From: a virus
Reading direction: 5' to 3' (one strand)
DNA: 32,729 nt
IMG/VR virus record: IMGVR_UViG_3300046791_000214
Coordinates: 1 to 32,729 of that record
Numbering within the stretch: the first letter of the stretch is position 1; the number at the start of each line of letters is the position of its first letter. The notes below the pieces were generated by a model. It saw nothing but the letters and a program-made list of their open reading frames with translations, was not told the DNA's origin and made no database searches. This document shows, piece after piece, positions 3,615-23,660 of the stretch. The position numbers were made by a program, and so were the translations under genes.

Positions 3615-3717
3615 GGTTTGGTTCCTTTCGGCGGTCCCGGCGGTTTGTGGTAAAACCGGGCCGCGCCCACCTTGTATACTGTGTGGGCGCCCGATGCAAC
3701 AGAACGTTAGGACATGA
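3615..3717. promoter_or_regulatory. divergent intergenic region, possible promoters
   Basis: This 103-bp gap separates the minus-strand ATPase/VWA pair from the plus-strand small genes, so it should hold promoters for both. A -10-like TATACT lies at 3675-3680, and its complement gives TATACA on the other strand; no convincing -35 box is seen at the usual spacing. An inverted repeat CGGTTT...AAACCG (3641-3658, loop about 6 nt) lies in the ATPase leader and could be an operator or an RNA hairpin. Confidence 0.35.
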
Positions 3718-4203
3718 ATGGCTGATTTTAGCGGCTTACAGGATCGAACGCGGCATGCGCGCATCACGCCGGAAACGGCGCCGATTTTCAAAGCCAAGGC
3801 GGCGCGCTGCCAATGGTGCGGGCAAATGGCGTTGCGCGGCATGCGCTGGTGCAAACGGCATGGGCCAGGGATGGCAGCGGATCGGCGCAAGCCGCAACAG
3901 CGCGGCAAGCCGGAACGCGATGCGCGCATCGTGCTGGTGGCAACGGAGTATGGCGCGGAGGGCGCCTTGCCCGCCTGGGCCAGGGCATGGCCCCCCATCG
4001 CGCGCATCCTGGCCACGCTGCCCAGGACGCGCCGCCCGGTTGGTATTGCCACGCTGTTACACGCCCTGGTGACGGCAGCCTGTGGCGATGGCGCGCCATG
4101 GGCGGCAGCGTGCCACGACATGCGGCGCCTGGGCATCATGTTGCCGGACGATCCGCCGCTGGCCCAGGCGCGCCTTGCGGGGGCTGACAATGGCAAAGCG
4201 TGA
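3718..4203 (+). CDS. small phage protein with a C-x2-C...C-x2-H zinc-type motif
   Basis: A 161-residue protein, first gene of the short plus-strand cluster. Residues around 31-48 read CQWCGQMALRGMRWCKRHG, a Cys-Cys-Cys-His pattern like the zinc knuckles of phage and mobile-element proteins that end in an RxC...HGG motif. The remainder (Ala/Arg/Trp-rich helices) is not recognised. ATG 3718 has AGGA five bases upstream. The gene overlaps the next one by 14 nt, which indicates translational coupling. DNA or RNA binding is a reasonable guess from the motif, but no function is established. Confidence 0.65.
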   Translation: MADFSGLQDRTRHARITPETAPIFKAKAARCQWCGQMALRGMRWCKRHGPGMAADRRKPQQRGKPERDARIVLVATEYGAEGALPAWARAWPPIARILATLPRTRRPVGIATLLHALVTAACGDGAPWAAACHDMRRLGIMLPDDPPLAQARLAGADNGKA

Positions 4204-6559: not shown

Positions 6560-8283
6560 GCCGCGCTTTCGACTTTTCCCAGCTTCCCAAAGGCGGCGTC
6601 ACGGTTCTTCCCAACCCGGCCACGGACATTCCGGTCGCGGGGGACGTGCTTGCCTACCTTAGCACCGACGCCAAGGGTAGAATTCTCACGGAATGGCGAG
6701 TTGGCGGCTCTGGCGGGGGCGGTGCGGGCACCGTCACCTCCATTACGGCCGGTGGCGTGCTCACCGGAGGCACCATCACCACGTCAGGCACCATTGGCCT
6801 CAACATCAGCACCGGCCTGATCAACAACGCGGGCACGATTTCCAACTCGGGCGTGATATCCGTGGGCGGCACGACGGGCAACGTCGCCCTTGGCACCGGC
6901 CTTGTCCTCAACACCCAGACCATCGCCGTCCGTCCCGCCACCACTGTCGCCCTCGGTGGTATTTCCGTGGGTGCTGGCCTCGCGGTTGACGTGAATGGTG
7001 TTCTCACCGTGACGGGAGGCACCGGCAGCGGGGGCGCCACGATCCAGCCCACGCCTCCCGCCGCCGCTGCCGGTGCCCTGTGGTGGGACAACACGGGCGG
7101 GCAACTCTATATCCGTTACGACGATGGCAATTCCCAGGAATGGGTCGCCGCTTCAGCACCTGCGGGTGCCGGGGGCGCCGGTTTTGTCCCCTCGGCTGGC
7201 GGCACCATGACGGGTCCACTGGTCCTGTCGGGCGATGCGACCGCCAACCTCAACCCGGTGCCCCTGCGCCAACTGAACACCACCCTGACGGCCTACGCCC
7301 TGACCTCGACGGTGCCGCCGCCGTCCTCGTCACTCCCCCTGATGGACAGCATCGCCGCCATCGGCAGCGCCGCGAATTTCGCCCGTGCCGATCACATACA
7401 CCCCACCGACACCTCCCGTGCCGCCACCAGCGCCATCCCCGTGGCCTCCGTGACAAACCCCCTGATGGACGGCACCGTTGCCATCGGTTCCTCCCTGAAC
7501 TGGGCCAAGGCCGATCATATTCACCCGACCGATACCACCCGTTACGCCGCGTCCAACCCCAGCGGCTACCAGACTGCCGCGCAACTGGCGGCTTACCTGC
7601 CGTTGGTCGGCGGGACATTGGCCGGGCCGGGCAACGTGAGTGGGACCAACATCAATCTTTCAGGCAACCTGACCGCCGGTAATGTGGTGGCCGCAGCGTG
7701 TTTCGCGGGGCAGCCGACTGTTACCGACTTTAATCTTGGGATTGGCGGCAATGTCCGTGCCCTCGCATGGCGTGGCGGTGTCTATGCCATGCAATTCGAC
7801 AACGCCATTGGGACGCTCAATATAATCGGCAATAGCCTCGTCACCTGGGCAATCGACTTTGGCGGCAACGTGAGCATGCCGAGCGGCAACCTCACGCTGG
7901 GCCAGGGCCACGGATACCAGCCGGGCGCCGGTCCTTGGCTCGGCACGTCTGACGCCAGAGTCAAGCGTAAGGTTGCGAAATACGAGACAGGATTAGCGGA
8001 AGTCACCGCGTTGGAGCCGGTAAGCTATGAGTATAACGGCCAAGGCGGAACCACGGATGACGGCAAGACATACTACGGGTTGATTGCCCAACACACAGCA
8101 AAAGTCATGCCGGAACTTATATTCACCATGCCATCTACCACTGACGAACACGGCAAGCGAACCGATAAGCTGCTGGATGGACAGCTAGGCACTAACCTTG
8201 GGCCGCTTACGATGGCCCTGGTCAACGCCGTGAAGACCCTCAACACGCGCCTTGCCGCCCTGGAGCAAGCCAATGGCGCTTGA
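6556..8283 (+). CDS. tail fibre with C-terminal S74 peptidase/chaperone domain
   Basis: A 575-residue fibre. The middle is Gly/Thr/Val-rich β-repeat. A 41-residue periodic repeat containing ADHIHPTDT occurs twice (about residues 262-290 and 303-331), a hallmark of alphaproteobacterial phage fibres. From about residue 464 to the end lies a Peptidase_S74 intramolecular chaperone: SDARVK with the nucleophilic Ser, a YYGLIAQ segment and a terminal helix (LNTRLAALEQ) that would trimerise. In this family the chaperone folds the trimer and then cuts itself off before the Ser of SDxRxK. ATGA coupling to the upstream gene; 11-nt overlap with the next. Confidence 0.88.
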   Translation: MSRAFDFSQLPKGGVTVLPNPATDIPVAGDVLAYLSTDAKGRILTEWRVGGSGGGGAGTVTSITAGGVLTGGTITTSGTIGLNISTGLINNAGTISNSGVISVGGTTGNVALGTGLVLNTQTIAVRPATTVALGGISVGAGLAVDVNGVLTVTGGTGSGGATIQPTPPAAAAGALWWDNTGGQLYIRYDDGNSQEWVAASAPAGAGGAGFVPSAGGTMTGPLVLSGDATANLNPVPLRQLNTTLTAYALTSTVPPPSSSLPLMDSIAAIGSAANFARADHIHPTDTSRAATSAIPVASVTNPLMDGTVAIGSSLNWAKADHIHPTDTTRYAASNPSGYQTAAQLAAYLPLVGGTLAGPGNVSGTNINLSGNLTAGNVVAAACFAGQPTVTDFNLGIGGNVRALAWRGGVYAMQFDNAIGTLNIIGNSLVTWAIDFGGNVSMPSGNLTLGQGHGYQPGAGPWLGTSDARVKRKVAKYETGLAEVTALEPVSYEYNGQGGTTDDGKTYYGLIAQHTAKVMPELIFTMPSTTDEHGKRTDKLLDGQLGTNLGPLTMALVNAVKTLNTRLAALEQANGA

Positions 8284-9535
8284 TTTCCCCAACGCCCCGA
8301 TCACGGGCGCGACTTTCCCTGGACCGAACGGCGCCCTGTGGCAATGGGACGGCGAAAAGTGGACCGCCGTGTCAACGTCCTCGACCGGGGGTGGCGGCGG
8401 TGCCTCCATTGTCATGCAACCCTCGCCTCCCGCCCTCGCGGCCAACGCCCTCTGGTGGGACACCATCGGGGGCCAGCTTTACGTCTGCTACGACGATGGC
8501 GTCGGACCCCTTCAATGGGTCACCGCCGCGAACATCCCCGGACCCCCTGCCTCCCAGGTCACCCAGACCGACGTGGCAAGCGCCCAGCGCAACGTCGGCC
8601 GCAACCTCATTCATAACGGTTTGTTTACGGTATGGCAGCGCGGAACGACTGCCGTGACGACCCATCTCGGATATTCAGCCGACAGGTGGCAAGGGTTGGT
8701 TGCCGCGCCTGATACGATAAGCCTGACGCGCGTGTCGCTTACGGATGCCGACCGGGCGGGGATCGGGGACGAGGAAGCCCGGTATGCCTTTCAGAACACT
8801 TTTGTCGGCAACACGGGCGGCTATTGTGGTTTCCAGCAACGGATTGAAAACGTGCAGCGTCTTGGCAACAAGACGGTCATCATAAGCTTCTACGCTGTTG
8901 CGGCATCCGGTACGCCTAAGATCGGCATCAACCTTTACCAAGTCTTCGGCACGGGCGGTTCCCCATCCGCCACTGTGATCGTGCTTGCCACCGGCCTCGC
9001 TGTCACCGCTGGCACCACCTGGGTCCGCTATTCCGTGACGATCCCGCTGCCCAGTGTTGCGGGGAAGGCTTATGGCACCAACAACGATGACTACACGCTG
9101 CTGCGGATTTACAATTCGGCAGGCACCACACAGAACCAGCAGGCAGGCAATATCGGCGTCCAGTCCGGCATCATAAACATCTGGGGCGTCCAGCTGGAGA
9201 TCGCCGCACCGGGACAGGTCGCGCCCACGCCGCTGGAGAAGATGGACGCCCAGCAGACCCTTGCGGTTTGCCAGCGGTTTTACTGTACTGGTAATTGGAT
9301 CGTAAGCGGCTATGGCACGTCGGGCTTGACCCCGGCACCGAATGCCATGCACTCGTTGCCTGTCCCCATGCGCGCACAGGCTCAGATTGCTGTCGCCGGG
9401 ACGCCGACCCTGACGAATGCCAGTGCCCCTGGGATAACGCCGTGGAACACCGCGCAATTCAGTGTCTATCTCACGGTGACGGCGACCGGAGCATATCAAG
9501 GCTACGGCGGATACACCGCAACGGCGGACCTCTGA
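8273..9535 (+). CDS. tail protein, receptor-binding-like paralogue 1
   Basis: A 420-residue protein, first of three tandem paralogues. Residues 1-35 form a short module with MALDFP...GPNG..W.WDG.KW, shared by all three and by other phage tail proteins. A second WWDTxGGQLYV.YDDG segment follows. The main domain begins at GRNLIHN (about 112) and runs through DRW, IGDEEARY, ENVQRLGNKTVIISF and AGNIGVQSG to WGVQLEIA (about 303), TPLEK and CQRFYC, a predicted β-sandwich common at the tips of tail proteins. The C-terminal tail after CQRFYC differs between paralogues. The start ATG 8273 lies within the end of the S74 fibre gene. Host-surface binding is inferred. Confidence 0.75.
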   Translation: MALDFPNAPITGATFPGPNGALWQWDGEKWTAVSTSSTGGGGGASIVMQPSPPALAANALWWDTIGGQLYVCYDDGVGPLQWVTAANIPGPPASQVTQTDVASAQRNVGRNLIHNGLFTVWQRGTTAVTTHLGYSADRWQGLVAAPDTISLTRVSLTDADRAGIGDEEARYAFQNTFVGNTGGYCGFQQRIENVQRLGNKTVIISFYAVAASGTPKIGINLYQVFGTGGSPSATVIVLATGLAVTAGTTWVRYSVTIPLPSVAGKAYGTNNDDYTLLRIYNSAGTTQNQQAGNIGVQSGIINIWGVQLEIAAPGQVAPTPLEKMDAQQTLAVCQRFYCTGNWIVSGYGTSGLTPAPNAMHSLPVPMRAQAQIAVAGTPTLTNASAPGITPWNTAQFSVYLTVTATGAYQGYGGYTATADL

Positions 9536-9537
9536 TC

Positions 9538-10779
9538 ATGGCCCTCGATTTCCCCAGCGCCCCGACCATCGGCCAGACTTACCCCGGCCCCAACGGCGTC
9601 ACCTGGGCCTGGGATGGCGCCAAGTGGACGACGGGCGCCACCTCCGGACCCCCGAACGGCGCCCTCATCGCCGCGACCCCGCCTTCATCGCCGGTCGGCA
9701 CCCTGTGGTGGGACACCACGGGTGGCCAGCTTTACGTGCTCTACAATGATGGCAACTCAACCGCCTGGGTGCCCGCCTCCAACATCACCGGCCTCGCCAA
9801 TGCCGCCACCAAAGCCGATGTCGGGCAGGCGCTCAACGATGTCGGGCGCAACCTCATCCACAACCCGCTGATGGCAGTCGCCCAAAGGGGGGTGGTGTCG
9901 GTGACAACCAGCGGCGGCTATCCGGTAGATCGTTGGCTTGTGTCCGCAACTCTGGATGCGATCTCATTTGCGCAAGGTGTCGGGGGCGATGCGGGCCGCG
10001 CGGCAATCGGGGATGAAGAGTTCAACTTCTTCCTGGGCAATACTATCACCGGCAACGGTGGCCCAACCGCGTTCAACCTCATCGCCCAGCGCATCGAGAA
10101 TGTCCGGCGCCTCGCGGGCAAGACGGTGATCATCAGCTTTTGGGCCAGCTGCGGCGCAGGCGCGCTCAAGCTGGGCATCAACATGCTGCAGAGTTTGGGT
10201 GCGGGTGGCTCTCCTGCAACCGTGCAGGTGCTTACAACCGGCAATAGTGTGACGCTTTCCACGACCTGGACGCGATATTCAACGACGATTGCTATCCCCA
10301 GCCTTGCGGGCAAAACCGTGGGCACATCACCGGGCAACGACCACTTCACTGCGTTGCAGTTTTTTTATTCGGCGGGCGCGAATACCAACCAAGTTGCCGG
10401 CAATATCGGTGTCCAGGGGCCGAATGTTCAGTTCTATCTCTGGGGCGTCCAGCTAGAGATCGCAACAGCGGGCCAGACCACGCCGACCCCGCTGGAGAAG
10501 CCGGACCCCCAGCAAGACCTTGCGAAATGCCAACGGTTTTATTGTGTAGGCGCTATACTTTGGGGCGGCTACTGCACCGCAGGCCAGCCATACTATGCGT
10601 CCACGTTCCTGCCGTCGATGCGGGCGCTGCCCGTTCTCACCCCCATTAGTGACACGTCTAGCAATTTCGGGGCCAGGACGCTGGCTGCGGCAGGGGGCAT
10701 GGCTTACGTCAATGCCAGCGCCACGGCGGCAGCGGCCGGAACGCTAAACGTTTCGTTTTCTGCCAGCGCGGACCTATAG
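9538..10779 (+). CDS. tail protein, receptor-binding-like paralogue 2
   Basis: A 413-residue paralogue of the genes on either side, with the same order: the MALDFP N-module, a WWDTTGGQLYVLYNDG segment, GRNLIHN near residue 105, RIENVRRLAGKTVIISFWA, WGVQLEIA near 301, TPLEKPDPQQDLAKCQRFYC, and a divergent C-terminal part ending in SADL. It starts two bases after the TGA of paralogue 1 with no clear Shine-Dalgarno sequence, so re-initiation or coupling is likely. It ends in TAG; the next gene begins two bases later. Confidence 0.75.
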   Translation: MALDFPSAPTIGQTYPGPNGVTWAWDGAKWTTGATSGPPNGALIAATPPSSPVGTLWWDTTGGQLYVLYNDGNSTAWVPASNITGLANAATKADVGQALNDVGRNLIHNPLMAVAQRGVVSVTTSGGYPVDRWLVSATLDAISFAQGVGGDAGRAAIGDEEFNFFLGNTITGNGGPTAFNLIAQRIENVRRLAGKTVIISFWASCGAGALKLGINMLQSLGAGGSPATVQVLTTGNSVTLSTTWTRYSTTIAIPSLAGKTVGTSPGNDHFTALQFFYSAGANTNQVAGNIGVQGPNVQFYLWGVQLEIATAGQTTPTPLEKPDPQQDLAKCQRFYCVGAILWGGYCTAGQPYYASTFLPSMRALPVLTPISDTSSNFGARTLAAAGGMAYVNASATAAAAGTLNVSFSASADL

Positions 10780-10781
10780 AC

Positions 10782-11969
10782 ATGGCCCTAGATTTCCCCG
10801 CATCCCCCGCGACCGGCGCCACCTACACCGGCCCCAATGGCGTCATCTGGTCATGGGATGGCGCCAAGTGGCTCGCGGGCACCAGCGCCAACGTCTACGC
10901 CCCGCTCACCGATCCGTTCTTCCAGGGTAACCCACAGGCCCCCAACCCGGCCGTGGGCGATGCCGACCAGACCGTGGCAACGACCAAGTTTGTCACCGAC
11001 GCCGTTGCGACCTCGCTGCATGATGTTGGCAGGAACTACATCCACAACAGCATGTTCAATATCTGGCAGCGTGGTCCTGGCCCCTTTACCACCACCACTT
11101 CTGCATACACCACAGATCGCTGGATATTCGTCAATTCCGCAGGGATAGGATCATTCACAGTAACACGGGCAACACTCAGTGATGGTGATCGTGCTGCGAT
11201 AGGCGACGAAGCTGCGCGCTATTGTATGCAGAACAACTTCACAGGTAACGCAGGTACTACAGCGCATGATTACGCTGATCACCGCATTGAGGATGTGCGT
11301 AGGCTCGCTGGTAAGACAGTGATCGTCAGCTTCTGGGCCATGAGTAGTGGAGGGGGAGTGAAGCTGGGGCTTAATATGTTCCAGCTATTCGGCTCTGGTG
11401 GTTCGCCATCCCCCTTTGTTCAGGTGCAAGTCACAGGAACAGCAATCACGACAACAGCAAGCTGGGCGCGTTATTCCACGGTGTTCACAATACCATCGAT
11501 AGCAGGTAAGACACTCGGGACAGATGGAAGCGATGCAACATGGTTGCGCTTCAGCTACACATGCGGTGCTACGAACAACCAGTCAACAGGCAATATCGGT
11601 GTTCAATCTGGTATCGTGAACGTCTGGGGCGTCCAGCTTGAACTCGGCACCGTCGCCACGCCGCTCGAAAAACTCGATCCGGTTACGCAACTGCAACAGT
11701 GCCAGCGGTTTTATTGCAGAACGGAAATTCATGCGCTGGGCACCGCTGGGGGAGCAAGCTACTATCTGGGCGTAAATGGCGTCTTCCCGGTCACGATGCG
11801 AGCCGTGCCGACCTCAGTGACATCCATTCAAAACATAGGCGCGGATATGAATGTCGCCGGTTTCGCCATCGACAGCCTTCATGTTGGTGGGTTTCGTGCT
11901 TTCGCCTCCTCAAGCGCGGCGAGCCAAATTCAGTATGACCGGCTCATAGCCGCCAGCGCGGACCTATAA
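10782..11969 (+). CDS. tail protein, receptor-binding-like paralogue 3, mosaic composition
   Basis: A 395-residue paralogue. The MALDFP N-module is retained, but the WWD..GGQLYV segment is replaced by a shorter NPQAPNPAVGDADQTVATTKFVTDAV linker of the kind common in fibres. The main domain runs from GRNYIHN (about residue 84) to WGVQLELG (about 281), TPLEK and CQRFYC. Its central DNA is markedly poorer in G+C and uses different codons from both flanks and from the other two copies: 125 of 240 bases (52%) in 11101-11340 against 83 of 120 (69%) in 10801-10920. This points to acquisition of the binding module by recombination. The protein ends in SADL like paralogue 2. Confidence 0.75.
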   Translation: MALDFPASPATGATYTGPNGVIWSWDGAKWLAGTSANVYAPLTDPFFQGNPQAPNPAVGDADQTVATTKFVTDAVATSLHDVGRNYIHNSMFNIWQRGPGPFTTTTSAYTTDRWIFVNSAGIGSFTVTRATLSDGDRAAIGDEAARYCMQNNFTGNAGTTAHDYADHRIEDVRRLAGKTVIVSFWAMSSGGGVKLGLNMFQLFGSGGSPSPFVQVQVTGTAITTTASWARYSTVFTIPSIAGKTLGTDGSDATWLRFSYTCGATNNQSTGNIGVQSGIVNVWGVQLELGTVATPLEKLDPVTQLQQCQRFYCRTEIHALGTAGGASYYLGVNGVFPVTMRAVPTSVTSIQNIGADMNVAGFAIDSLHVGGFRAFASSSAASQIQYDRLIAASADL

Positions 11970-11971
11970 CC

Positions 11972-13771
11972 ATGACCTCACGCATCCAGGCACAGCGTTT
12001 CAGCCTCACCAACAACAAGCCCACGGCGGGTGTGCGAACACCCGGTGAAATCTACCTGAACTTCCCCGACCTTCGCCTTGGCATGATCGACGCCTCCCGT
12101 AATCCGGTTGACATCCTTGCCATGCGTCGTCACGCACCGACCGCTTCCTACACCACGGGCGACCACGTCGTCGCCAACAGCCTCATCTACGTCGCCAAGA
12201 CCGATCTGGCGCCCAAAGCCTTCGCCGCCACTGACTGGAACTCCTACCTCCCGGTGGTGAACAACACGATCCCCGCCATTACGTCCTCGGGCAACATCAC
12301 GGGCCAGACCCTGATCTCGAACAATGGCCGCATCATCTCGTCCATGACGGGCGCGGGCAACTCCCCGTCCTTCTCGATGTGGAACATCACCAACGCCAAG
12401 GCTGCCGGGTTCTGGTCGAACAACGGCGAGATCAATTTCGGCGCCATGGATGGCGCGGGCGTGCCTGCCGTCTATTACGGCGGCGTCGATGCGAACAAGA
12501 ACCTCTACATGACCGGTGCCATAACCACCGGCAATTACCTCGCTTCGGCCAACGGCATTTACTACGCCAACTTCAATGGTTCCGAGTGGCACAGCTATAT
12601 CGAAACCAACTCCAACGACAAGATCACGTCCTACCGTTCGGGCTGGTATGACCGCTGGCAGAACAGCACGGGCGCGCGCTACTGGGCCGGGCCATCCGGC
12701 TACCTGCTGACCCTTGATGGGAGCGGCACCCTGGTCGCCTCGGGCGTGGTGCGCGGCTCCCAGCTATGGGCTTCGGTCTTCGACAACAGCAACGGCATAT
12801 ACACCTCCGGTGGCGGGCGTTGGCGGAACTGGCAGGTAAGTACCGATGGCTGGCGCTGGCAGTGGGACAACACCAACGGCTGGATGCAATACATCAACAG
12901 CGGCGGCACCGCCCTGTTCACCATAGACGGCGGCGGCTCGATCACCGCCCTCGGCAATATCAATACGGGCAACGACATCGGCTGCCGGTCGCTGTATGCC
13001 AGCACCAACGTGCAGGGCGCGTGGCTTCATTCCACCGGCAGCGCCCAGATCGACGGCAGCATCGGCGTCAGCGGCAACGTCAACTGCGCCAATTCGGTCA
13101 CGGGCGGCTATGTGCGCTCCACCGGCACCGTCCAGGCCGATGGCAACTTCAATGGCAACCAGGGCATCATCGTCGCCGGAAACATGGTGGGCAACGCCAT
13201 CTTCTGCGCCAATGGCCTGTTCGCGGGCGGCAACGGCGATACCTCCCTCGGCGTCTATCGCGGCGGCAGCGGGCGCGTCATGCAGATGGCGGGCGGCTGG
13301 TATTGGGACTGGAACGGCGGCAACGGCACCATGATCTGGATGCGTGACGGTGCTGGTCCCTTCTGGGTGATGTATTCGCCCAGTTCGCTTTGTTATAATA
13401 ATTCCGGCCCGATTGGCGGCACCAACTTCTTCCAGACCAGCGACCAGCGTTTCAAGCAGGACGTGCAGCCCCTGCAAAGGGGCCTGTCGGAAATCCTGCG
13501 CTTGCAGCCGGTCAGCTACCGCCGCCTGCGCGCCGTCAATACCCAGGTCGAGGGCCGTGCGATCCCTGGTCCCGAACCCCAGACCGAAGTGGGTTTCGTC
13601 GCCCAGGCCGTGCGCGCCATTCTCCCCGAGGCGGTGGTCGAAATGCCCATCGAGACGCCCGATGGCGATCCCAACTCGCTGGCCCTGGCCTACAGCACGA
13701 TCACGGCCACCCTGGTGCGCGCGGTGCAGGAACTCACGGCGCGCGTCATCGCCCTGGAGGCACCGGCATGA
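11972..13771 (+). CDS. second tail fibre/spike with C-terminal S74 chaperone
   Basis: A 599-residue protein with a Gly/Asn/Trp-rich repetitive β body (for example repeated W..N...G and GN.. motifs) and a C-terminal Peptidase_S74 domain starting near residue 489: TSDQRFKQDV with the nucleophilic Ser, VGFVAQAV, and a final helix (VRAVQELTARVIALE). The N-terminus (RIQAQRFSLTNNKPTAGVRTPGEIYLNFPD) is of the kind that attaches fibres of these phages to the virion. It shares only the chaperone type with the fibre at 6556; the bodies differ. Two bases separate it from paralogue 3 and ATGA overlap couples it to the small membrane gene. Confidence 0.85.
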   Translation: MTSRIQAQRFSLTNNKPTAGVRTPGEIYLNFPDLRLGMIDASRNPVDILAMRRHAPTASYTTGDHVVANSLIYVAKTDLAPKAFAATDWNSYLPVVNNTIPAITSSGNITGQTLISNNGRIISSMTGAGNSPSFSMWNITNAKAAGFWSNNGEINFGAMDGAGVPAVYYGGVDANKNLYMTGAITTGNYLASANGIYYANFNGSEWHSYIETNSNDKITSYRSGWYDRWQNSTGARYWAGPSGYLLTLDGSGTLVASGVVRGSQLWASVFDNSNGIYTSGGGRWRNWQVSTDGWRWQWDNTNGWMQYINSGGTALFTIDGGGSITALGNINTGNDIGCRSLYASTNVQGAWLHSTGSAQIDGSIGVSGNVNCANSVTGGYVRSTGTVQADGNFNGNQGIIVAGNMVGNAIFCANGLFAGGNGDTSLGVYRGGSGRVMQMAGGWYWDWNGGNGTMIWMRDGAGPFWVMYSPSSLCYNNSGPIGGTNFFQTSDQRFKQDVQPLQRGLSEILRLQPVSYRRLRAVNTQVEGRAIPGPEPQTEVGFVAQAVRAILPEAVVEMPIETPDGDPNSLALAYSTITATLVRAVQELTARVIALEAPA

Positions 13772-13965
13772 TTTCGTTGTTGATATATGTGTTGATCTTA
13801 TGCCTGATCTTTGGGGTGGTGTATTACGTCATCACCCTCCTGCCCTTGCCCGCGCCGTTCGGCCTGATCGTGCAGGTGATCCTTGCGCTGATCCTCGTGC
13901 TTGTATTGCTGGACCTGTTGCTTGGAGGCCGTTTCGTCGGGCTGGCCCCGTTGAGGCTCCAGTGA
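13768..13965 (+). CDS. small two-helix membrane protein (holin-like or unknown)
   Basis: A 65-residue, very hydrophobic protein. Two predicted transmembrane helices (about residues 3-24 and 31-53) are joined by a short LPLPAPFG turn. Similar small proteins next to phage structural or lysis genes are annotated as membrane proteins or holin candidates. It starts in an ATGA overlap with the S74 fibre gene. The last 11 residues (RFVGLAPLRLQ) are encoded by DNA that is also the sense strand of the antiparallel RHH gene, so the natural end may be nearer LLLGG. Confidence 0.6.
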   Translation: MISLLIYVLILCLIFGVVYYVITLLPLPAPFGLIVQVILALILVLVLLDLLLGGRFVGLAPLRLQ

Positions 13966-14094
13966 CAGCCCGCGCTCCAATAACTCGCGCACGGCGGCGG
14001 CACGGCTCACCAATCGCCGCGTGTGCCAGTATTCGTCAATGCGTGCCGCTAACGCCGTTGATATACGCAAGGGCATTGTCACGAAAATATCCAT
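13798..14094 (-). CDS. ribbon-helix-helix (Arc/MetJ-type) regulator
   Basis: 98 residues on the minus strand in an otherwise plus-strand operon. Residues 1-43 have the RHH pattern: a short β-strand (IFVTMPLRIS), helix 1 (ALAARIDEYWHTRR), an SRAAAVRELLERGL helix 2 with the typical SR/A..RELL spacing. Such proteins bind DNA as dimers, often as autorepressors. These 43 residues occupy exactly the DNA not used by the membrane gene; the remaining polar tail (Gln/Asp/His-rich) runs antisense through that gene and may be dispensable. A strong promoter-like sequence and a palindrome precede it. The RHH domain is convincing; the target is inferred to be the shared divergent region. Confidence 0.72.
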   Translation of the reverse strand: MDIFVTMPLRISTALAARIDEYWHTRRLVSRAAAVRELLERGLSLEPQRGQPDETASKQQVQQYKHEDQRKDHLHDQAERRGQGQEGDDVIHHPKDQA

Positions 14095-14214: not shown

Positions 14215-14233
14215 TCTAGCCAAGGAGATACCG

Positions 14234-14959
14234 ATGAAGAACCACTATCTCGTAACCGGCGTCCTGGCGGTGGCGATGGCCGCAATCGCCAGTTTTCCTG
14301 CTCACGCTACGCTACAGGTAGCCGCCAATTTCGGCGGCACGACCTTCCTGTGCGTGGATAACACAGGCTGCGACACGAACCTGTCCACCGGCACGATCCA
14401 GATCGCCAACCAGACGATTGGGGGCATCACGGTCAACGGCAGTGTCCAGACTTCGGTTGGCACGCCCGCCAATCCCAACGTGCAGGACATCCTGAACACG
14501 TCCTCGCTCAATCTCATCAACACCTTGGGCATCGCCGTCGCTTACACGGTCACCATCAGCGATACGTTCTTCGCTGCCCCGGTCAACCAGTTCAGCGCCA
14601 CGACTGCGGGCACATGGCAAAACGCCATCGGCTCGACCGCCCAGACCCGCCTTTGGGCCGATGCCACCAACCAGCAGGGCGCTGACAGCATCAACGACAC
14701 GCCCGGCATCCTCTTGGATAATTTCACCTCCACCGCGCTGCTTTCCGCCGACAGCTACAGCCACAACGCCAGCGGCATCTTCAACAGCGCCAACCCGTTC
14801 TCGATCACTGAACAGGTCACCGGTTCATTGTCTGCTGGTGGTCAGCTTATCAATCGTGGGCAGACTGCAATTCTGGAGAATGTGCCTGAACCTGCTTCCA
14901 TGACCATCCTTGGCATGGGCCTGATCGGCCTTGCCACGCTGCGGCGGAAGTGGCGCTAG
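14234..14959 (+). CDS. secreted protein with PEP-CTERM sorting signal
   Basis: A 241-residue exported protein. Residues 1-25 are a Sec signal peptide (basic MKNHY, hydrophobic core, AHA cleavage site). The mature part is Thr/Asn/Gly-rich and β-like with a C..C pair (FLCVDNTGCD). The C-terminus carries VPEPASM (residues 217-223), a hydrophobic helix and a final RRKWR, the three-part PEP-CTERM signal recognised by exosortases, enzymes that cleave and sort proteins to the outer surface or matrix in EPS-producing bacteria. The start ATG 14234 has AAGGAG seven bases upstream; an in-frame extension to 14111 would hide the signal peptide. Its divergent RHH neighbour and position inside a structural operon mark it as a moron-type gene acting in the host. 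The mature domain was not recognised. Confidence 0.85.
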   Translation: MKNHYLVTGVLAVAMAAIASFPAHATLQVAANFGGTTFLCVDNTGCDTNLSTGTIQIANQTIGGITVNGSVQTSVGTPANPNVQDILNTSSLNLINTLGIAVAYTVTISDTFFAAPVNQFSATTAGTWQNAIGSTAQTRLWADATNQQGADSINDTPGILLDNFTSTALLSADSYSHNASGIFNSANPFSITEQVTGSLSAGGQLINRGQTAILENVPEPASMTILGMGLIGLATLRRKWR

Positions 14960-15039
14960 TCTTTCTCATCTTGATCGGCGTGGTGCTCGTCGCGGGCGCC
15001 ACGCTGGCCTATCGAACATGGAACGGCGATTGGGACTAA
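14950..15039 (+). CDS. 29-residue single-pass membrane peptide (candidate)
   Basis: The reading frame GTG 14950 to TAA 15039 encodes a 29-residue peptide with a hydrophobic helix (ALVFLILIGVVLVAGATLA) followed by YRTWNGDWD. It overlaps the stop of the PEP-CTERM gene by ten bases and ends nine bases before the next ATG, filling what would otherwise be an 88-bp gap in a tightly packed region. The Shine-Dalgarno sequence is weak (GGCGGAA, very close). Small membrane peptides of this size occur among phage lysis and accessory genes; no function is assigned. Confidence 0.42.
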   Translation: MALVFLILIGVVLVAGATLAYRTWNGDWD

Positions 15040-15047
15040 GGACACAT

Positions 15048-15218
15048 ATGCAACCGCAACCCCTCCAGCCCACCGACCTTCGCACCGTCACCCTCCAGGC
15101 GCAGGAGTGGAACACCGTCTTCGCCGTGCTCAACACGGTGCAGGCGCTGATCTCGCGCATGGTGGAACAGGTCCAGGCGCCGCCCCCTGGCTTTGAACCT
15201 GTGGTTGATGATGGATGA
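15048..15218 (+). CDS. small conserved-type phage protein
   Basis: A 56-residue protein, helical in the middle (QEWNTVFAVLNTVQALISRMVEQVQ), the style of the small EWN.V...L..L proteins found among podovirus structural genes. ATG 15048 has AAGGA five bases upstream. It overlaps the next gene by 11 bases. Function unknown; it may form a small helical bundle. Confidence 0.6.
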   Translation: MQPQPLQPTDLRTVTLQAQEWNTVFAVLNTVQALISRMVEQVQAPPPGFEPVVDDG

Positions 15219-15561
15219 GGAAAAGCCCAAGCGTCCAACGTGGCTCACCCTGTCGGTGCTGGGCGTCGTCGCCAGCGTCGGGCTTTACGTGTTCGTCATC
15301 GGCGCCGAGATAGGCACGATGCGCCAGCAGATGGTCAGCAACGAGTTCAGGATAACGGCACTGGAGACGCACGGCTCCGGTCCCGTCCAGACGGCTGCGG
15401 CCAAGGTTGAGGCGCTGACCAACCGGGCCGACCGTATCTTGGAGGGCCTGCTGACGCTGCAACAGAAGATGTCCGACCTCCAGGCCACCCAGCAAACGCA
15501 GGGCGTCATCCTCAACCGGCTACAGGAAGATGTCACCAAGCAAGGAGCCAACCCGAAATGA
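15208..15561 (+). CDS. membrane-anchored coiled-coil protein
   Basis: A 117-residue protein with one N-terminal transmembrane helix (about residues 11-31, WLTLSVLGVVASVGLYVFVIG) and a long polar coiled-coil region (heptads in MRQQM..., VEALTNRADRILEGLLTLQQKMSDLQ, LNRLQEDV). A membrane anchor plus coiled coil resembles inner-membrane spanins or holin-like accessory proteins, but no matching outer spanin lipoprotein is seen. ATG 15208 or 15211 may start it; both lie inside the end of the previous gene. ATGA overlap with the next gene. Confidence 0.62.
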   Translation: MMDEEKPKRPTWLTLSVLGVVASVGLYVFVIGAEIGTMRQQMVSNEFRITALETHGSGPVQTAAAKVEALTNRADRILEGLLTLQQKMSDLQATQQTQGVILNRLQEDVTKQGANPK

Positions 15562-17429: not shown

Positions 17430-19076
17430 GTGCGCGCACTCAGACCCGGCGAGCGTGGCCCTTCAGCGCGGGGCCGACGCCTTCAACTGGAAAACCCTGG
17501 TGGCATCATCATGCCGCCGGAACTCTCCGAGGCGCGCATCTACGAGCGCCTGGAAGCGGCCAACAAGGCCAGGGATAACCTCCTGGCTTTCGCGCGCTTT
17601 ATGACCCCTGATCCCCGCGACGTGGATGACACGACGTTGTCACGCTACATCGTGGCAAAGCCGCATCGTGCGGTCGCGGACGCGTTGATGAAGGTCGAGC
17701 GTGGCGACATAAGAAAACTTATTATCAATATGCCCCCGCGCCACGGGAAGACGGAGTTAGCCTCCAAACTCTTTATCCCTTGGCTCTCCGGTCGGAACCC
17801 TTACTGGTCGGTGATATTCGCCACCTACAACCAAACCTATGCCGAGGATATCGGCCGCGCCGTGCGCGAGAACATGACATCTCCCCTGTTCGAGCAGGTG
17901 TTTCCCGATAACGCCTCGCGCGTGCGGGGTGACTCCCAGGCCAGCGACCGCCTCCAGAACAATGTCCACTCCGTGCTGGCCTTCGCCGGTCGCGGTGGAA
18001 CCATCACCGGTCGCGGGGGTAACGTCCTTGTCTGTGACGATCCGATCAAGGACCGCAAGGAAGCCGACTCCCAGCTTATCCGCAACCAGCTATGGGAATG
18101 GATGATGCAGGTGTTCCGCTCGCGCATGATGGACAAGGACGCGCGTATCGTCCTGATCCAGACGCGCTGGCACGCGGATGATCCGGTGGGGCGCATCACG
18201 GACCCCGACAACGAGTTTTACAACCAGTCCGAAGCCGCCGAGTGGCACATCGTTGACCTGCCCGCGCTGGCCCTTGAAGACGATCCCCTCGGGCGCGAGC
18301 CGGGGGACGCCCTGTGGCCCGAGCGTTTCGATAAACCCTTCTTTGAGCAAATCCAGCGCACCGATGCCCGTGGCTTCGCGGCCCTCTACCAGGGCCGACC
18401 GGTTCTTCCCGGCATGCGGTTTTTCGAGGAAAGCTGGATGATGCCCTACAACGGCAAGGAACTGCCCCCGCTGGACCAGCTACGCATCTACGTCGCCTCC
18501 GACCACGCCGTGTCAAGCGACCAGACCCGTGACAAGACGTGCTGCATCCCGGTCGGGGTAGATAGCCAGGGCACGATCTGGATCATGCCCGACGTGTGGT
18601 GGCGCCACGCCAATACCGACGTGGTCGTGGAGGGCATGCTGGCTCTGATCCGCAAATACAAACCCCTGGCTTGGTTCGCGGAACGAGGTCATATCTCCAA
18701 GTCCATCGGACCCTTTCTTCGCAAGCGCATGCTTGAAGAGCGTGTGTTCGCCGCTGTTCACGACATGCCGATTGTGGCCGACAAGCAAACCCGTGCCCAA
18801 TCGATCCAGGGTCGCATGGCGATGCGGCGCATTCGCTTTCCCGCGTTCACCTCATGGTGGTCCGAGGCGCGCAAGCAGATGCTCCAGTTTCCCTTTGGCC
18901 CCAAAGATGACTTCGTTGACGCGCTGGCCTGGGTTGGCCTCGGCCTCGACATGATGGTCGGTGCCCGCCCCACCGCCGAGGCGCCCAGACAATTCTCACC
19001 CTTCACGCTGGGGGCGATCAAGGCTGAAACCAAACGGCGCAACACGGCCCAGTTGTCGCGCATGGGAGGCTTCTGA
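17430..19076 (+). CDS. terL: terminase large subunit
   Basis: ATP-driven DNA-packaging motor and headful/end nuclease. Counting from GTG 17430 (548 residues): Walker A MPPRHGKT at 101-108, Walker B VLVCDDP at 199-205, the coupling motif IQTRWHADD, and an RNase H-type nuclease with Asp in VASDHA (358), Glu in FAERGH, and the terminal KDDFVDALAW acidic pair near 494-497. These cover all expected catalytic residues. GTG 17430 directly follows the TAG of the previous gene and has AGGAG 11 bases upstream. ATG 17511 (521 residues) is an alternative that removes an Arg/Gly-rich lead but would leave an 81-bp gap unusual for this operon. It overlaps the portal gene by one base. Confidence 0.95.
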   Translation: MRALRPGERGPSARGRRLQLENPGGIIMPPELSEARIYERLEAANKARDNLLAFARFMTPDPRDVDDTTLSRYIVAKPHRAVADALMKVERGDIRKLIINMPPRHGKTELASKLFIPWLSGRNPYWSVIFATYNQTYAEDIGRAVRENMTSPLFEQVFPDNASRVRGDSQASDRLQNNVHSVLAFAGRGGTITGRGGNVLVCDDPIKDRKEADSQLIRNQLWEWMMQVFRSRMMDKDARIVLIQTRWHADDPVGRITDPDNEFYNQSEAAEWHIVDLPALALEDDPLGREPGDALWPERFDKPFFEQIQRTDARGFAALYQGRPVLPGMRFFEESWMMPYNGKELPPLDQLRIYVASDHAVSSDQTRDKTCCIPVGVDSQGTIWIMPDVWWRHANTDVVVEGMLALIRKYKPLAWFAERGHISKSIGPFLRKRMLEERVFAAVHDMPIVADKQTRAQSIQGRMAMRRIRFPAFTSWWSEARKQMLQFPFGPKDDFVDALAWVGLGLDMMVGARPTAEAPRQFSPFTLGAIKAETKRRNTAQLSRMGGF

Positions 19077-21373
19077 TGAGCGGTTACGGCCTACCTCCCC
19101 CTGACGAACCGGATATCGGGGGCCAGCCCGACGAAGTGGACCCGGTTGCCCAAGGCATGTTCTCGGGCAACGAACCCAAGACCGACGCCTTCACGGGACA
19201 GGCCAACCCGACCACGGCGATCCCCCGCGAACGGCCCGAACCGGACCCGGCGCGTGCCGCCCTGGTCAAGCAGATACAGGGGGAAATCCGTTCCGCCCGC
19301 AGCAACTGGCAGCCCGTCTTTGACCGCATGCGCGAGGACATGGATTTCGCCATGGGGGTGCAGTGGCCCGGCCAAACCTTGGGCAAGCGCACCGACCGCT
19401 ACATCTGCAACGTGGTGCTGCGCCACGTCCAGCAGCTTACTTCTACCCTCTACGCCAAGAACCCCACGGTGTCGGCACGCAAGCGCAAGCGGTTGATCAA
19501 CACGGTCTGGGACGGCACCGAGGTGAGCCTGCAAGCCGCGATGCAGGCGCTTGCCGTGAACCCGCTGGATCCCAACGCCCTGGCCGTGATGATGGACGCC
19601 CAGAACGTCCGGTCCACGAACCAACTCCTCGACAAGATGGGGTCCACGCTGGAGATCGTCTACAACTACAACGTTGAGGAACAATCCCCGGTCACCTTCA
19701 AACATGGCATGAAGCTGGTCGTGCGCCGGGCGATCATCACTGGCCTTGGTTACGTCAAGCTGGGGTTCCAGCGCGTGGTCAAGCAAGACCCGTCCATGAT
19801 GCGCCACAACGCCGACGCCCTCGGGCGCCTGCACGCCGCGACCCGCATGGCCCAGGACGTGGGCGACAAGCAGGTCGAACTCGATAGCGCCACCGTTGAG
19901 GAACTACGCCTGACTACCCAGGCGCTGGCCCAGGACAAGGAGATCGTGCTGCGCGAGGGCCTTACTTTCGACTACCCCGACAGCATGGCGATCATCCCCG
20001 ACATCAACTGCCGCGACCTGGGTAGCTTCATGGGCTGCCAGCGGGTCACCGAGCAATATCTTCTGACCGTCGCCCAGGTGCAGGAAATCTACGGCGTGGA
20101 CGTGAGCAAGGGGTTCACTTCCTACCAATCCGCGACCCAAGGCGGTTTCGACGCCCGCGACAACGGCATGCCAACCACCCTGCCGCGCAGCGCCATGAAC
20201 CTTGACGGCTATACCAGCGGCGACGATACGCGAGGCAAAGGCTACGTTTGCGTGTGGGAGACATATGACCGCTCCACTGGGTTGGTTTATGAAACCGCTG
20301 ACGGCTACCCGGATTTCCTGACGGAACCCACGCCCCCGGCGGCGCAGACCGAACGCTTCTGGCCCTGGTATGCCTACACCCTGAACGATACCTACCACGT
20401 CGCCACGCCCTATCCCATGTCGGATGTCTCGCTGATGCGTGACATGCAACTGGAAATCAATCGCGCCCGTGAGGGGCTTCGCGAGCATCGCCACGCGGCG
20501 CGGCCCAAGACGCTGATCGCGGCGGGCCAGTTGGACGATGAAGATCGGGATAAACTTAAAACTCACCCGGCCAACGCGATCATCGAACTGAACGGGTTGG
20601 CACCGGGCCAGAAGGTCACTGACCTGCTGTTCCCGTGGCAAGGCCCCGGTATTGATATGAACCTGTATGAAACCAAGTCGGCAATGGATGACATATTGCG
20701 CGTGGTGGGCGTGCAGGAAGCCAACCTTGGCGGCACCTCTGGCGCCACTGCGACCGAGAGTTCCATCGCGGAGAGTTCGCGGGTGACGAGCGTGGACGCA
20801 TCCATGGACGACATGGATGACCTCCTATCCAACATGGCGCGTGCCGGATCGCAGCTTTTATTGTTGAACGTGAGCACCGAGATCGCCCAGCAGATCGCCG
20901 GTCCCGGTGCCGTGTGGCCCCAGGCCAGTGCCTTGGAGGTGGCCGAGGAGATTTACCTTGAGGTCCAAGCGGGGTCGTCGGGACGACCCAATCAGCAGAA
21001 AGAAATCCAGGCGATGACCCAGATGGCGCCCTTGCTCTTGCAGGTGCCGGGCATCAATCCGGAGTGGGTCGCCCGTGCCATGTTGTCACGCGTTGACGAC
21101 CGTGCCCGCATGGATGACGCCCTGGCCGCTGGCTTGCCCTCGATCCAGGCCATGAACTCCGTCATGGGGAACGTGCCGGGGGGTCTTCCCCCAGGCGGTT
21201 CGCCCACCGAGCCGGGACAGGCGGGCGCGGCCGGTCCCGGTGATCCCAATGCCCAAGGTCCACAGGGTGCCAGCAACGCGCCACAGCCTCCAGGCCAGGG
21301 CGGTCCTGGCCCGCGCGCACCCGCACCGCGTCCCGCGATGGGGCCGCAGGGAGGTCGCCCGATGGTGAACTGA
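19076..21373 (+). CDS. portal protein
   Basis: A 765-residue head-vertex ring protein through which DNA enters and leaves. Recognised from position directly after the terminase and from portal-type segments: an N-terminal QWPGQ..GKRTDRYICNVVLRHVQQLTSTLYAKNPTV region, a long central β/α region, MRDMQLEINRAREGLREH with RPKTLIAAG, and an IAESSRVTSVDASMDDMDDLLSNMARAG helix typical of podovirus portals. The last 65 residues are a Gly/Pro/Gln-rich tail (PPGGSPTEPGQ... RPMVN), longer than in most relatives and probably disordered. TGATG coupling to the terminase gene. Confidence 0.9.
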   Translation: MSGYGLPPPDEPDIGGQPDEVDPVAQGMFSGNEPKTDAFTGQANPTTAIPRERPEPDPARAALVKQIQGEIRSARSNWQPVFDRMREDMDFAMGVQWPGQTLGKRTDRYICNVVLRHVQQLTSTLYAKNPTVSARKRKRLINTVWDGTEVSLQAAMQALAVNPLDPNALAVMMDAQNVRSTNQLLDKMGSTLEIVYNYNVEEQSPVTFKHGMKLVVRRAIITGLGYVKLGFQRVVKQDPSMMRHNADALGRLHAATRMAQDVGDKQVELDSATVEELRLTTQALAQDKEIVLREGLTFDYPDSMAIIPDINCRDLGSFMGCQRVTEQYLLTVAQVQEIYGVDVSKGFTSYQSATQGGFDARDNGMPTTLPRSAMNLDGYTSGDDTRGKGYVCVWETYDRSTGLVYETADGYPDFLTEPTPPAAQTERFWPWYAYTLNDTYHVATPYPMSDVSLMRDMQLEINRAREGLREHRHAARPKTLIAAGQLDDEDRDKLKTHPANAIIELNGLAPGQKVTDLLFPWQGPGIDMNLYETKSAMDDILRVVGVQEANLGGTSGATATESSIAESSRVTSVDASMDDMDDLLSNMARAGSQLLLLNVSTEIAQQIAGPGAVWPQASALEVAEEIYLEVQAGSSGRPNQQKEIQAMTQMAPLLLQVPGINPEWVARAMLSRVDDRARMDDALAAGLPSIQAMNSVMGNVPGGLPPGGSPTEPGQAGAAGPGDPNAQGPQGASNAPQPPGQGGPGPRAPAPRPAMGPQGGRPMVN

Positions 21374-22574: not shown

Positions 22575-22952
22575 GTGGCCTTTACCGCAGCGGAACTAGA
22601 CAACATTGCTGTCGCCGCCTTGGATTTTTACTTCAACAAGGGAGACAAATTTCCACAGACCATCCAGACCAAGCCGATGACGGACGCCTTCCTGTCCGGG
22701 GCCAAGACGTTCCCCGGCGGCAAGGGGAATATCTCCTTGGCGGTCAAGGGCGCCTATGGCAACGCGGGTGTCAACGACACCCTCAAAGGCTACACCCATG
22801 ACGATCAGGTGGTGTTCTACACGCCCGCAAATCTCAAGCGCGCCAACTACGCGTGGAAGGAAATGCACATCGGCCTGACCATGACCCACACCGAACTCAA
22901 GATCGACGGCATCAGCGTCACCGATCCTGGGTCGAGCGGGTCCAGCACGTAG
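22575..22952 (+). CDS. major capsid protein, N-terminal part ending at an in-frame UAG
   Basis: The first 125 residues of the major capsid protein: an N-terminal helix (TAAELDNIAVAALDFYF), the KTFPGGKGNISLAVKG.YGN region, HDDQVVFYTPANLKRANYAWKEMHIGLTMTHTELK, then a Gly/Ser loop (DPGSSGSST) and UAG at 22950-22952. The same frame continues with capsid sequence to 23660, so this is one interrupted gene, not a complete short gene. GTG 22575 has GGGAGG five bases upstream. The stop falls in a polar surface-loop-like segment where CAG, GAG or TCG would each be one base away. Readthrough, a recent nonsense mutation and a sequencing error all remain possible. Confidence 0.8.
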   Translation: MAFTAAELDNIAVAALDFYFNKGDKFPQTIQTKPMTDAFLSGAKTFPGGKGNISLAVKGAYGNAGVNDTLKGYTHDDQVVFYTPANLKRANYAWKEMHIGLTMTHTELKIDGISVTDPGSSGSST

Positions 22953-22967
22953 AACCACACCGACCGT

Positions 22968-23660
22968 GTGAAGACCGTTCTGGTCGGCCTGCTTGAGGAC
23001 AAGCTGGAAGACTTGGGCGAGCAATATGCTCGTCAGTTGGACAAGCTGATCCATGGTGACGGTGCCGCCGATCCCAAGGCGCTGTCGGGCATCATGGCAC
23101 TGCTATCGGCCAACCCGGTCACGGGCACGGTCGGTGGCCTCGACCGTGCCACCTATCCCTGGTGGCGCAACCGCGCGCGGACGGCGGCTTCCCTCGCGGG
23201 CGGTGGCCTTGGCGCGGTGACTTCCAGCCCCACCAACGGCGGCGCGCTTTTGCAGGTGCTTCAGCAGGATTACATGCAGTTGACCCGCTATGGCGGCAAG
23301 CCGAACAAGCTGTTCTGCGGCAGTGACTTCCTTGCGGCTCTCCAAACCGAGGTCCGTGCCAACGGGCTTTACTTCTCCAGCGGCCCGAGCGGTGGCCAGT
23401 CCACCTCGGTGGGCAACATCACCATCGTGGGTGGCATCAGCCCCACCTATGATCCGACGCTTGACGATCTCGGCCTCCAGAAACGCGGGATTATCATTGA
23501 TACCTCGGCCATCTACTTGGAGAAGATGGAAACCGAGTGGATGCACATGCACACCCCGTCGCGCCCGTATGACCGGTTCACGCTGTGGAAGTCCATGACC
23601 TCCACGGGTCAGATGTGCGCGTCACGCCTGAACTCGTCGGAAATCATCGATATCGCTTAG
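22968..23660 (+). CDS. major capsid protein, C-terminal part in frame after the UAG
   Basis: The continuation of the capsid frame (from 22953; the first possible independent start is GTG 22968, with no ribosome-binding site). It carries the bulk of the coat fold: LLEDKLEDLGEQYARQLDKLIHGDGAADPKALSGI, a long helix region, NKLFCGSDFLAAL, the ISPTYDPTLDDLG loop, the IIIDTSAIYLEKMETEWMHMHTPSRPYDRFTLW ending and LNSSEIIDIA. Over the whole 362-codon span the UAG is the only interruption, and codon use is the same on both sides, arguing against long decay. It ends in TAG 23658-23660, followed in the same phase by GVTA and the next gene. Confidence 0.8.
   Translation: MKTVLVGLLEDKLEDLGEQYARQLDKLIHGDGAADPKALSGIMALLSANPVTGTVGGLDRATYPWWRNRARTAASLAGGGLGAVTSSPTNGGALLQVLQQDYMQLTRYGGKPNKLFCGSDFLAALQTEVRANGLYFSSGPSGGQSTSVGNITIVGGISPTYDPTLDDLGLQKRGIIIDTSAIYLEKMETEWMHMHTPSRPYDRFTLWKSMTSTGQMCASRLNSSEIIDIA

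Follow-up and report, generated by a model that had tools for sequence, protein, structure and literature searches.

A phage-borne family of PEP-CTERM proteins and its possible role at the surface of the infected cell

Why would a phage carry a gene for a protein that ends in the sorting tag of bacterial exosortase substrates, and what could such a protein do for the phage? The question is raised by a single gene in the window, i.e., in the whole stretch of DNA that was analysed, a single IMG/VR virus record with a length of 32,729 bases. The roles of most PEP-CTERM proteins and exosortases are poorly known, and phage-encoded substrates in many unrelated viruses would show that the PEP-CTERM surface is contested between phages.

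The PEP-CTERM gene of the window

An earlier sequence-only reading had described the gene product as a PEP-CTERM protein with a signal peptide, a beta-rich mature part and a tail, encoded inside a phage structural region. Both statements were borne out. The protein scored above the cut-offs of Pfam PF07589 (27.8 bits, cut-off 20.7; match at 14882-14947) and TIGR02595 (18.4 bits, cut-off 16), its C-terminus reads ..VPEPASMTILGMGLIGLATLRRKWR, and residues A23 and A25 of the putative signal peptide are invariant in A1 (a conserved AxA). An AlphaFold2 model (m4559736e345e, mean pLDDT 88.3) predicts a beta-sandwich and a helix at residues 221-240. The tail fibre, terminase, portal and capsid genes of the window are all encoded on the plus strand, as is the PEP-CTERM gene, which is placed between the last tail fibre gene and the terminase gene (Table 1). 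Prophage moron genes have a promoter and a terminator of their own within a structural operon and belong to temperate phages. For comparison, a promoter search at the gene yielded only one sigma-70-like site, which is located within the gene itself, and terminator-like sites were near chance level.

Table 1. Features of the window around the PEP-CTERM gene and of its structural region
Feature	Position	Strand	Remarks
Tail fibre with Peptidase_S74 chaperone	11972..13771	+	462 bases upstream of the PEP-CTERM gene
65-aa membrane protein	13768..13965	+	Holin-like by hydrophobicity only; homologues upstream of the PEP-CTERM gene in many loci
Divergent ribbon-helix-helix-like regulator	13945..14094	-	Conserved first 50 aa of ORF 13798-14094; homologues upstream of the PEP-CTERM gene
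Ribosome-binding site AAGGAG	14222..14227	+	Six bases 5' of ATG, by sequence reading
PEP-CTERM protein gene, family A	14234..14959	+	241 aa; PF07589 and TIGR02595 above cut-off; viral relatives; purifying selection
Putative signal peptide, residues 1-25	14234..14308	+	Ends ..FPAHA; by sequence inspection
Mature beta-sandwich domain, residues 26-215	14309..14878	+	190 residues; predicted, AlphaFold2 model
PEP-CTERM tail, residues 217-241	14882..14956	+	PEP at 14885-14893, hydrophobic helix, RRKWR end
29-aa membrane peptide	14950..15039	+	Overlaps the PEP-CTERM gene end; relatives shortly after the last PEP-CTERM gene
Membrane plus coiled-coil protein (cluster 5)	15193..15561	+	Near the PEP-CTERM gene in 13 loci
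Terminase large subunit	17430..19076	+	PF03237, phrog_38
P22-like portal	19076..21373	+	PF16510, phrog_156
Major capsid protein	22575..23660	+	phrog_9953; one in-frame TAG

A hydrophobic end that is not conserved in relatives would have spoken against this assignment, and the opposite was found. When the 241-aa protein was shuffled 200,000 times, a PEP-CTERM-like end (scored by our own heuristic) arose only once, and among 28 aligned members of the family, which we call family A, 27 matched PF07589 and 26 matched TIGR02595. After further scans, a strict PEP tail was present in 59 of the 61 distinct members with a complete end; the two exceptions read QEP and SEP, with a helix and an arginine end like those of the others. 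The shuffles, the profile matches across members and the strict-tail counts together rule out a chance hydrophobic tail. Comparison of the window gene with five relatives gave dN/dS values of 0.09-0.24, i.e., purifying selection.

The closest structural matches of the fold predicted for family A are carbohydrate-binding modules and domains like them (8okh, Z 9.4; 7kwc, Z 8.6; 2xom, Z 8.2), and a tailspike domain also resembles this fold (8iqe, Z 8.1). For such a model, Z values of 8-9 represent a moderate match of arrangement, which says nothing on function. The family A profile had no match among PDB sequences, and the window protein had none among the PHROGs.

Some other features of the window were observed. 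The major capsid gene is interrupted after 125 codons by an in-frame TAG (22950-22952). As the homologue in locus L014 is uninterrupted and the PEP-CTERM gene itself terminates in TAG, recoding of TAG is unlikely; the interruption would be either a sequencing error or a real mutation. The N-terminal parts (MALDFP...) of three consecutive tail-fibre-like genes at 8252-11969 are related, as though by duplication. By eye, two long frames were noticed on the minus strand, opposite to that of the late genes: the first (3-2018) has a repeat rich in glycine and glutamate and looks von Willebrand-like, and the second (2034-4196) is AAA ATPase-like.

Distribution of family A

Conservation in other viruses had also been at issue. 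A search of IMG/VR with the single window protein retrieved 12 loci, and a search with a ten-sequence alignment retrieved 62 loci with relatives. The family A profile collected 70 ORFs, including the window and leaving out its duplicate L001, of which 53 are distinct at 95% identity, six being second-gene copies. Gene order is most similar to that of the window in L014, where the tail fibres, the PEP-CTERM gene, terminase, portal, capsid and genes further downstream all have homologues arranged as in the window. As this order is shared across the PEP-CTERM gene, a chimera at about 14.0-15.0 kb, which could have undone the whole assignment, and contamination are ruled out for the window.

Homologues of tail fibre, terminase, portal or capsid genes were found in 39 of 64 loci, including the window, within the locus DNA examined. 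A terminase search (phrog_2) of the whole records for 23 of the remaining 25 loci added nine loci, including two with weak matches (E near 6e-5), so that 48 of the 64 loci have a hallmark gene and none was found in 16 within the DNA searched. Among these 16, an Erf-like recombinase is encoded close by in L040, L041, L045, L046 and L054, and an exonuclease in L040, L041, L045, L046 and L049. Of 92 hallmark ORFs in the vicinity of family A genes, 90 point in the same direction as the family A gene. The phrog_2 terminase matches of L026, L023 and L039 each contain one TGA, which might represent recoding, an intein or an error.

The PEP-CTERM proteins are far more alike than their neighbours. The window and L005 share 84% identity in the PEP-CTERM protein and 24% in the terminase, the respective values for L014 are 77% and 42%, and family A genes are found beside differing terminase and portal families. 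This pattern suggests that the gene has been exchanged between phages. Six family A loci (L049, L051, L055, L057, L058 and L062) have tails of the form PEPxxW, which is probably typical of Alphaproteobacteria. The closest relative of the L057 portal is that of an Ochrobactrum phage, followed by those of a Microcystis phage and a Sinorhizobium phage.

Outside uncultured viruses, family A was sought in several collections. Full-length queries of families A, B and C (the latter two are described below) found nothing in 50,697 isolate phages, and one weak isolate-phage match of family D, antisense to a recA-like gene, was taken as chance. A tblastn search of the isolate phages with the tail only was also negative, and it is uninformative, because the same type of query missed an annotated PEP-CTERM protein of the plasmid collection. 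Plasmids gave one weak match (E 1). No family A member turned up when 84,980 species genomes were scanned with sequence patterns, which recover 58 of the 70 family ORFs then known, six being second-gene ORFs. A second cellular scan with one pattern gave one locus, which matched across 28 tail residues. The cellular profile scans covered Pseudomonadota only: profile A5, from which the tail had been cut off, had no match in 398 genomes, 57 of which do contain PEP-CTERM proteins, and it recovered all of the 22 viral records on which it had not been trained. The family C profile matched one of the 398 genomes weakly (E 3e-4), within a 1034-aa frame. Within the collections searched, family A is confined to viruses and is not an ordinary host gene.

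Other PEP-CTERM families, small neighbouring genes and the exosortase

The same tail was found on three further protein families. Family B is a second gene that in several loci has a four-base overlap with the first gene, and family D is an alternative second gene. Family C was first noticed via its tail, and a scan of its own gave 97 viral loci, of which 80 were kept. Strict tails occur in 8 of 9, 56 of 59 and 4 of 4 distinct members of families B, C and D, respectively. Families A and C have no profile similarity (hhalign probability 0.2 percent), and the fold predicted for family C is a beta-barrel (pLDDT 83.0), for which Diels-Alderase and dirigent-type barrels are the closest structures (best Z 9.3, again a likeness of arrangement that says nothing on function); Foldseek found no match to this model at an E value of 0.001 or better. 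As families A and C differ in sequence as well as in predicted fold, the tail is the shared functional element.

Merging of loci with an identical end resulted in 122 groups with 123 gene chains. Family A or C opens the chain in all but eight, the two alternate as the first gene and never occur together in one chain, and 21 of the chains contain two or three PEP-CTERM genes. The shares of the families are not a census, because the loci came from scans for A, B or C. At L075 and L081, two unrelated PEP-CTERM proteins are encoded several kilobases apart on one viral record; this DNA, which could be bacterial or come from the flank of a provirus, was left out of the counts for families A-D.

Small genes recur around the PEP-CTERM gene. 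After removal of repeated contigs and near-identical pairs, the divergent regulator is present in nine loci; one of these has family C, and the remaining eight, among them the window, have family A. The eight copies outside the window are 51-80% identical to that of the window. Two of these relatives reached 17.6-17.7 bits with RHH_1, below its cut-off of 20.5, and the window copy was unmatched; the regulator is called ribbon-helix-helix-like solely because of these two scores. A perfect 10-base palindrome in front of the window copy was considered as an operator and was dropped, as it is present in only one of the nine loci. The 65-aa membrane protein had no Pfam match. Relatives of the 29-aa peptide, 52-86% identical, were found in L014, L004, L027, L072 and L020. 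The group of regulator and small membrane genes is typical of the closest relatives and is missing from most loci.

None of 54 distinct viral records tested contained an exosortase gene, while two were detected in the positive control genome. Therefore, the host would have to supply the enzyme, and we infer secretion, sorting by a host exosortase and surface display of the phage protein from the known pathway. The sequence-only reading had also envisaged display by a lysogenic cell. This idea has been weakened: a tyrosine integrase was found in just 4 of the 48 records tested, and none was found in the window. The scarcity of integrases favours a role in the lytic phase over lysogenic conversion, with the reservation that many of the records are fragments.

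Possible functions and comparison with known systems

The sequence-only reading had proposed that the displayed protein could mask receptors, change the matrix or block superinfection, all of which are treated as hypotheses here. We hypothesize that the displayed protein shields the infected cell. The gene would be phage cargo, and its secreted beta-domain protein would enter the periplasm via the signal peptide, be held by the C-terminal helix, and be cut by the host exosortase and moved to the surface or matrix. Late in infection it would alter the surface of the infected cell, shielding or occupying surface glycans that are used in adsorption, and sibling phages and fresh progeny would not be wasted on the infected cell or its debris, an outcome that T5 Llp reaches by other means. 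We put superinfection exclusion by such a phage-cargo protein, displayed by a host exosortase, a little short of an even chance, and surface shielding is tentatively ranked ahead of matrix binding, decoy, lysis and virion roles. Several observations are in agreement with shielding: the tail is kept across families A, B, C and D while the heads of A and C are unrelated; hallmark ORFs are co-directional, and the adjacency to a tail fibre gene is like that of T5 llp; the head resembles carbohydrate-binding modules; and the PEP-CTERM gene is more alike between phages than its neighbours are, while integrases are few. The reading is weakened by the lack of an exosortase in the tested phages, by the moderate quality of the carbohydrate-binding-like match, and by a tail-fibre neighbourhood that is common but not universal, since a tail fibre gene lies within 3 kb in 14 of 80 family A loci and in none of 85 family C loci (locus DNA examined). 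The present data do not separate shielding from adhesion or a change of the matrix.

One alternative is a matrix or aggregation factor, i.e., a PepA-like protein that would bind exopolysaccharide to the cell and hold infected cells in flocs or a biofilm. The proposed gain, that the next hosts are brought close or that the infected cell is protected, is as unlikely in our estimate as the role itself, although both are far from negligible. The carbohydrate-binding-like fold would fit, bacterial PepA moves polymer from the soluble to the bound fraction and rescues flocculation (PMC9850573), and the window protein has a weak full-length match to NF033554 (35.4 bits, E 9.9e-9), which 22 of 28 family A members share. 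However, this score is far under the cut-off of 80, and 37 of 37 family C members match as well (with the C-terminal two thirds in the member shown), so that it may largely reflect the shared tail and low-complexity composition. The predicted fold of family C is also a different one. Retention of the tail on differing heads, together with the lack of a phage exosortase, would also be expected of a decoy, an abundant phage substrate that saturates the host exosortase, leaves host PEP-CTERM proteins unsorted and thereby makes the matrix looser, so that progeny are set free. Conserved heads would be superfluous in a decoy; the mature part, however, shows purifying selection and is confidently folded in the models, and we regard this role as improbable.

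Equally improbable is an accessory function in lysis, in which the protein and its small membrane neighbours would aid late envelope breakdown: the recurrence of the 65-aa and 29-aa membrane proteins and the membrane plus coiled-coil protein speaks for it, but the neighbour proteins tested match no lysis family, the fold is not enzyme-like, and the group is missing from most loci. The position among tail-fibre genes and the resemblance to tailspike domains (8iqe) would suit a virion component, e.g., a fibre decoration. A signal peptide and a C-terminal membrane helix do not, no PHROG family was found among 50 members, and some loci lie near recombination genes instead of structural ones, which makes such a component very improbable. 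The PEP-CTERM system is bacterial, and the 16 of 64 family A loci without a hallmark gene in the DNA searched could be taken to indicate a bacterial gene on chimeric or misclassified contigs. In view of the hallmark genes of the other 48, the gene order of L014 and the absence from the cellular genomes searched this explanation is hardly credible in general, and it is refuted for the window.

Beyond shielding as such, it is quite conceivable, if somewhat less than probable, that lytic phages have evolved their own modular display system, in which phage-private heads are joined to a host tag, the exosortase is commandeered and the infected cell is coated. With the same reservation, this system would comprise at least four interchangeable beta-domain families, of which two differ in predicted fold, sometimes in tandem and sometimes with a divergent regulator. 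If true, modular display would count as a mechanistically new class of superinfection exclusion or matrix remodelling. The phage proteins would add a surface-acting layer to phage competition and supply a natural set of substrates for tests of exosortase sorting, and it is predicted that phages with a PEP-CTERM gene should infect exosortase-positive bacteria.

Both elements of this proposal, the sorting tag and phage proteins that exclude rivals at the cell surface, are already known. In line with the sequence-only reading, which knew of no phage system built on the PEP-CTERM signal, we found no description of phages using the tag as a system in the open-licence literature. The available text of a study on hot-spring viruses mentions in one sentence 13 viral proteins of the exosortase-linked family TIGR03118 (PMC11003980); this is another protein family, and in that text its members are merely listed as horizontally acquired genes, with no system described. 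In bacteria, PEP-CTERM proteins and exosortases have been tied to extracellular polymer binding and flocculation (PMC9850573 and PMC12188702), and the colony genes of Microcystis include PEP-CTERM genes (available passages of PMC12642866).

The window protein is like exosortase-sorted PEP-CTERM proteins in its signal peptide, PEP motif, helix and arginine-rich end; in contrast to them it is phage-encoded, the viral records lack an exosortase, and the heads are absent from the cellular genomes searched. It shares the layout of the flocculation-associated PepA and has a weak full-length match to it, but its score is below the NF033554 cut-off and it is phage-borne. The superinfection-exclusion lipoproteins Llp of T5 and Cor are likewise small secreted phage proteins, and llp adjoins the receptor-binding gene of T5 on its downstream side (available passages of PMC9586334), a position that resembles that of the window gene 462 bases after a tail fibre gene. 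A lipobox is absent from the window protein, the signal peptide of which ends in AHA with no cysteine there. Llp is a periplasmic lipoprotein that acts on one receptor, whereas the window protein carries an exosortase tag, and its beta domain is much larger.
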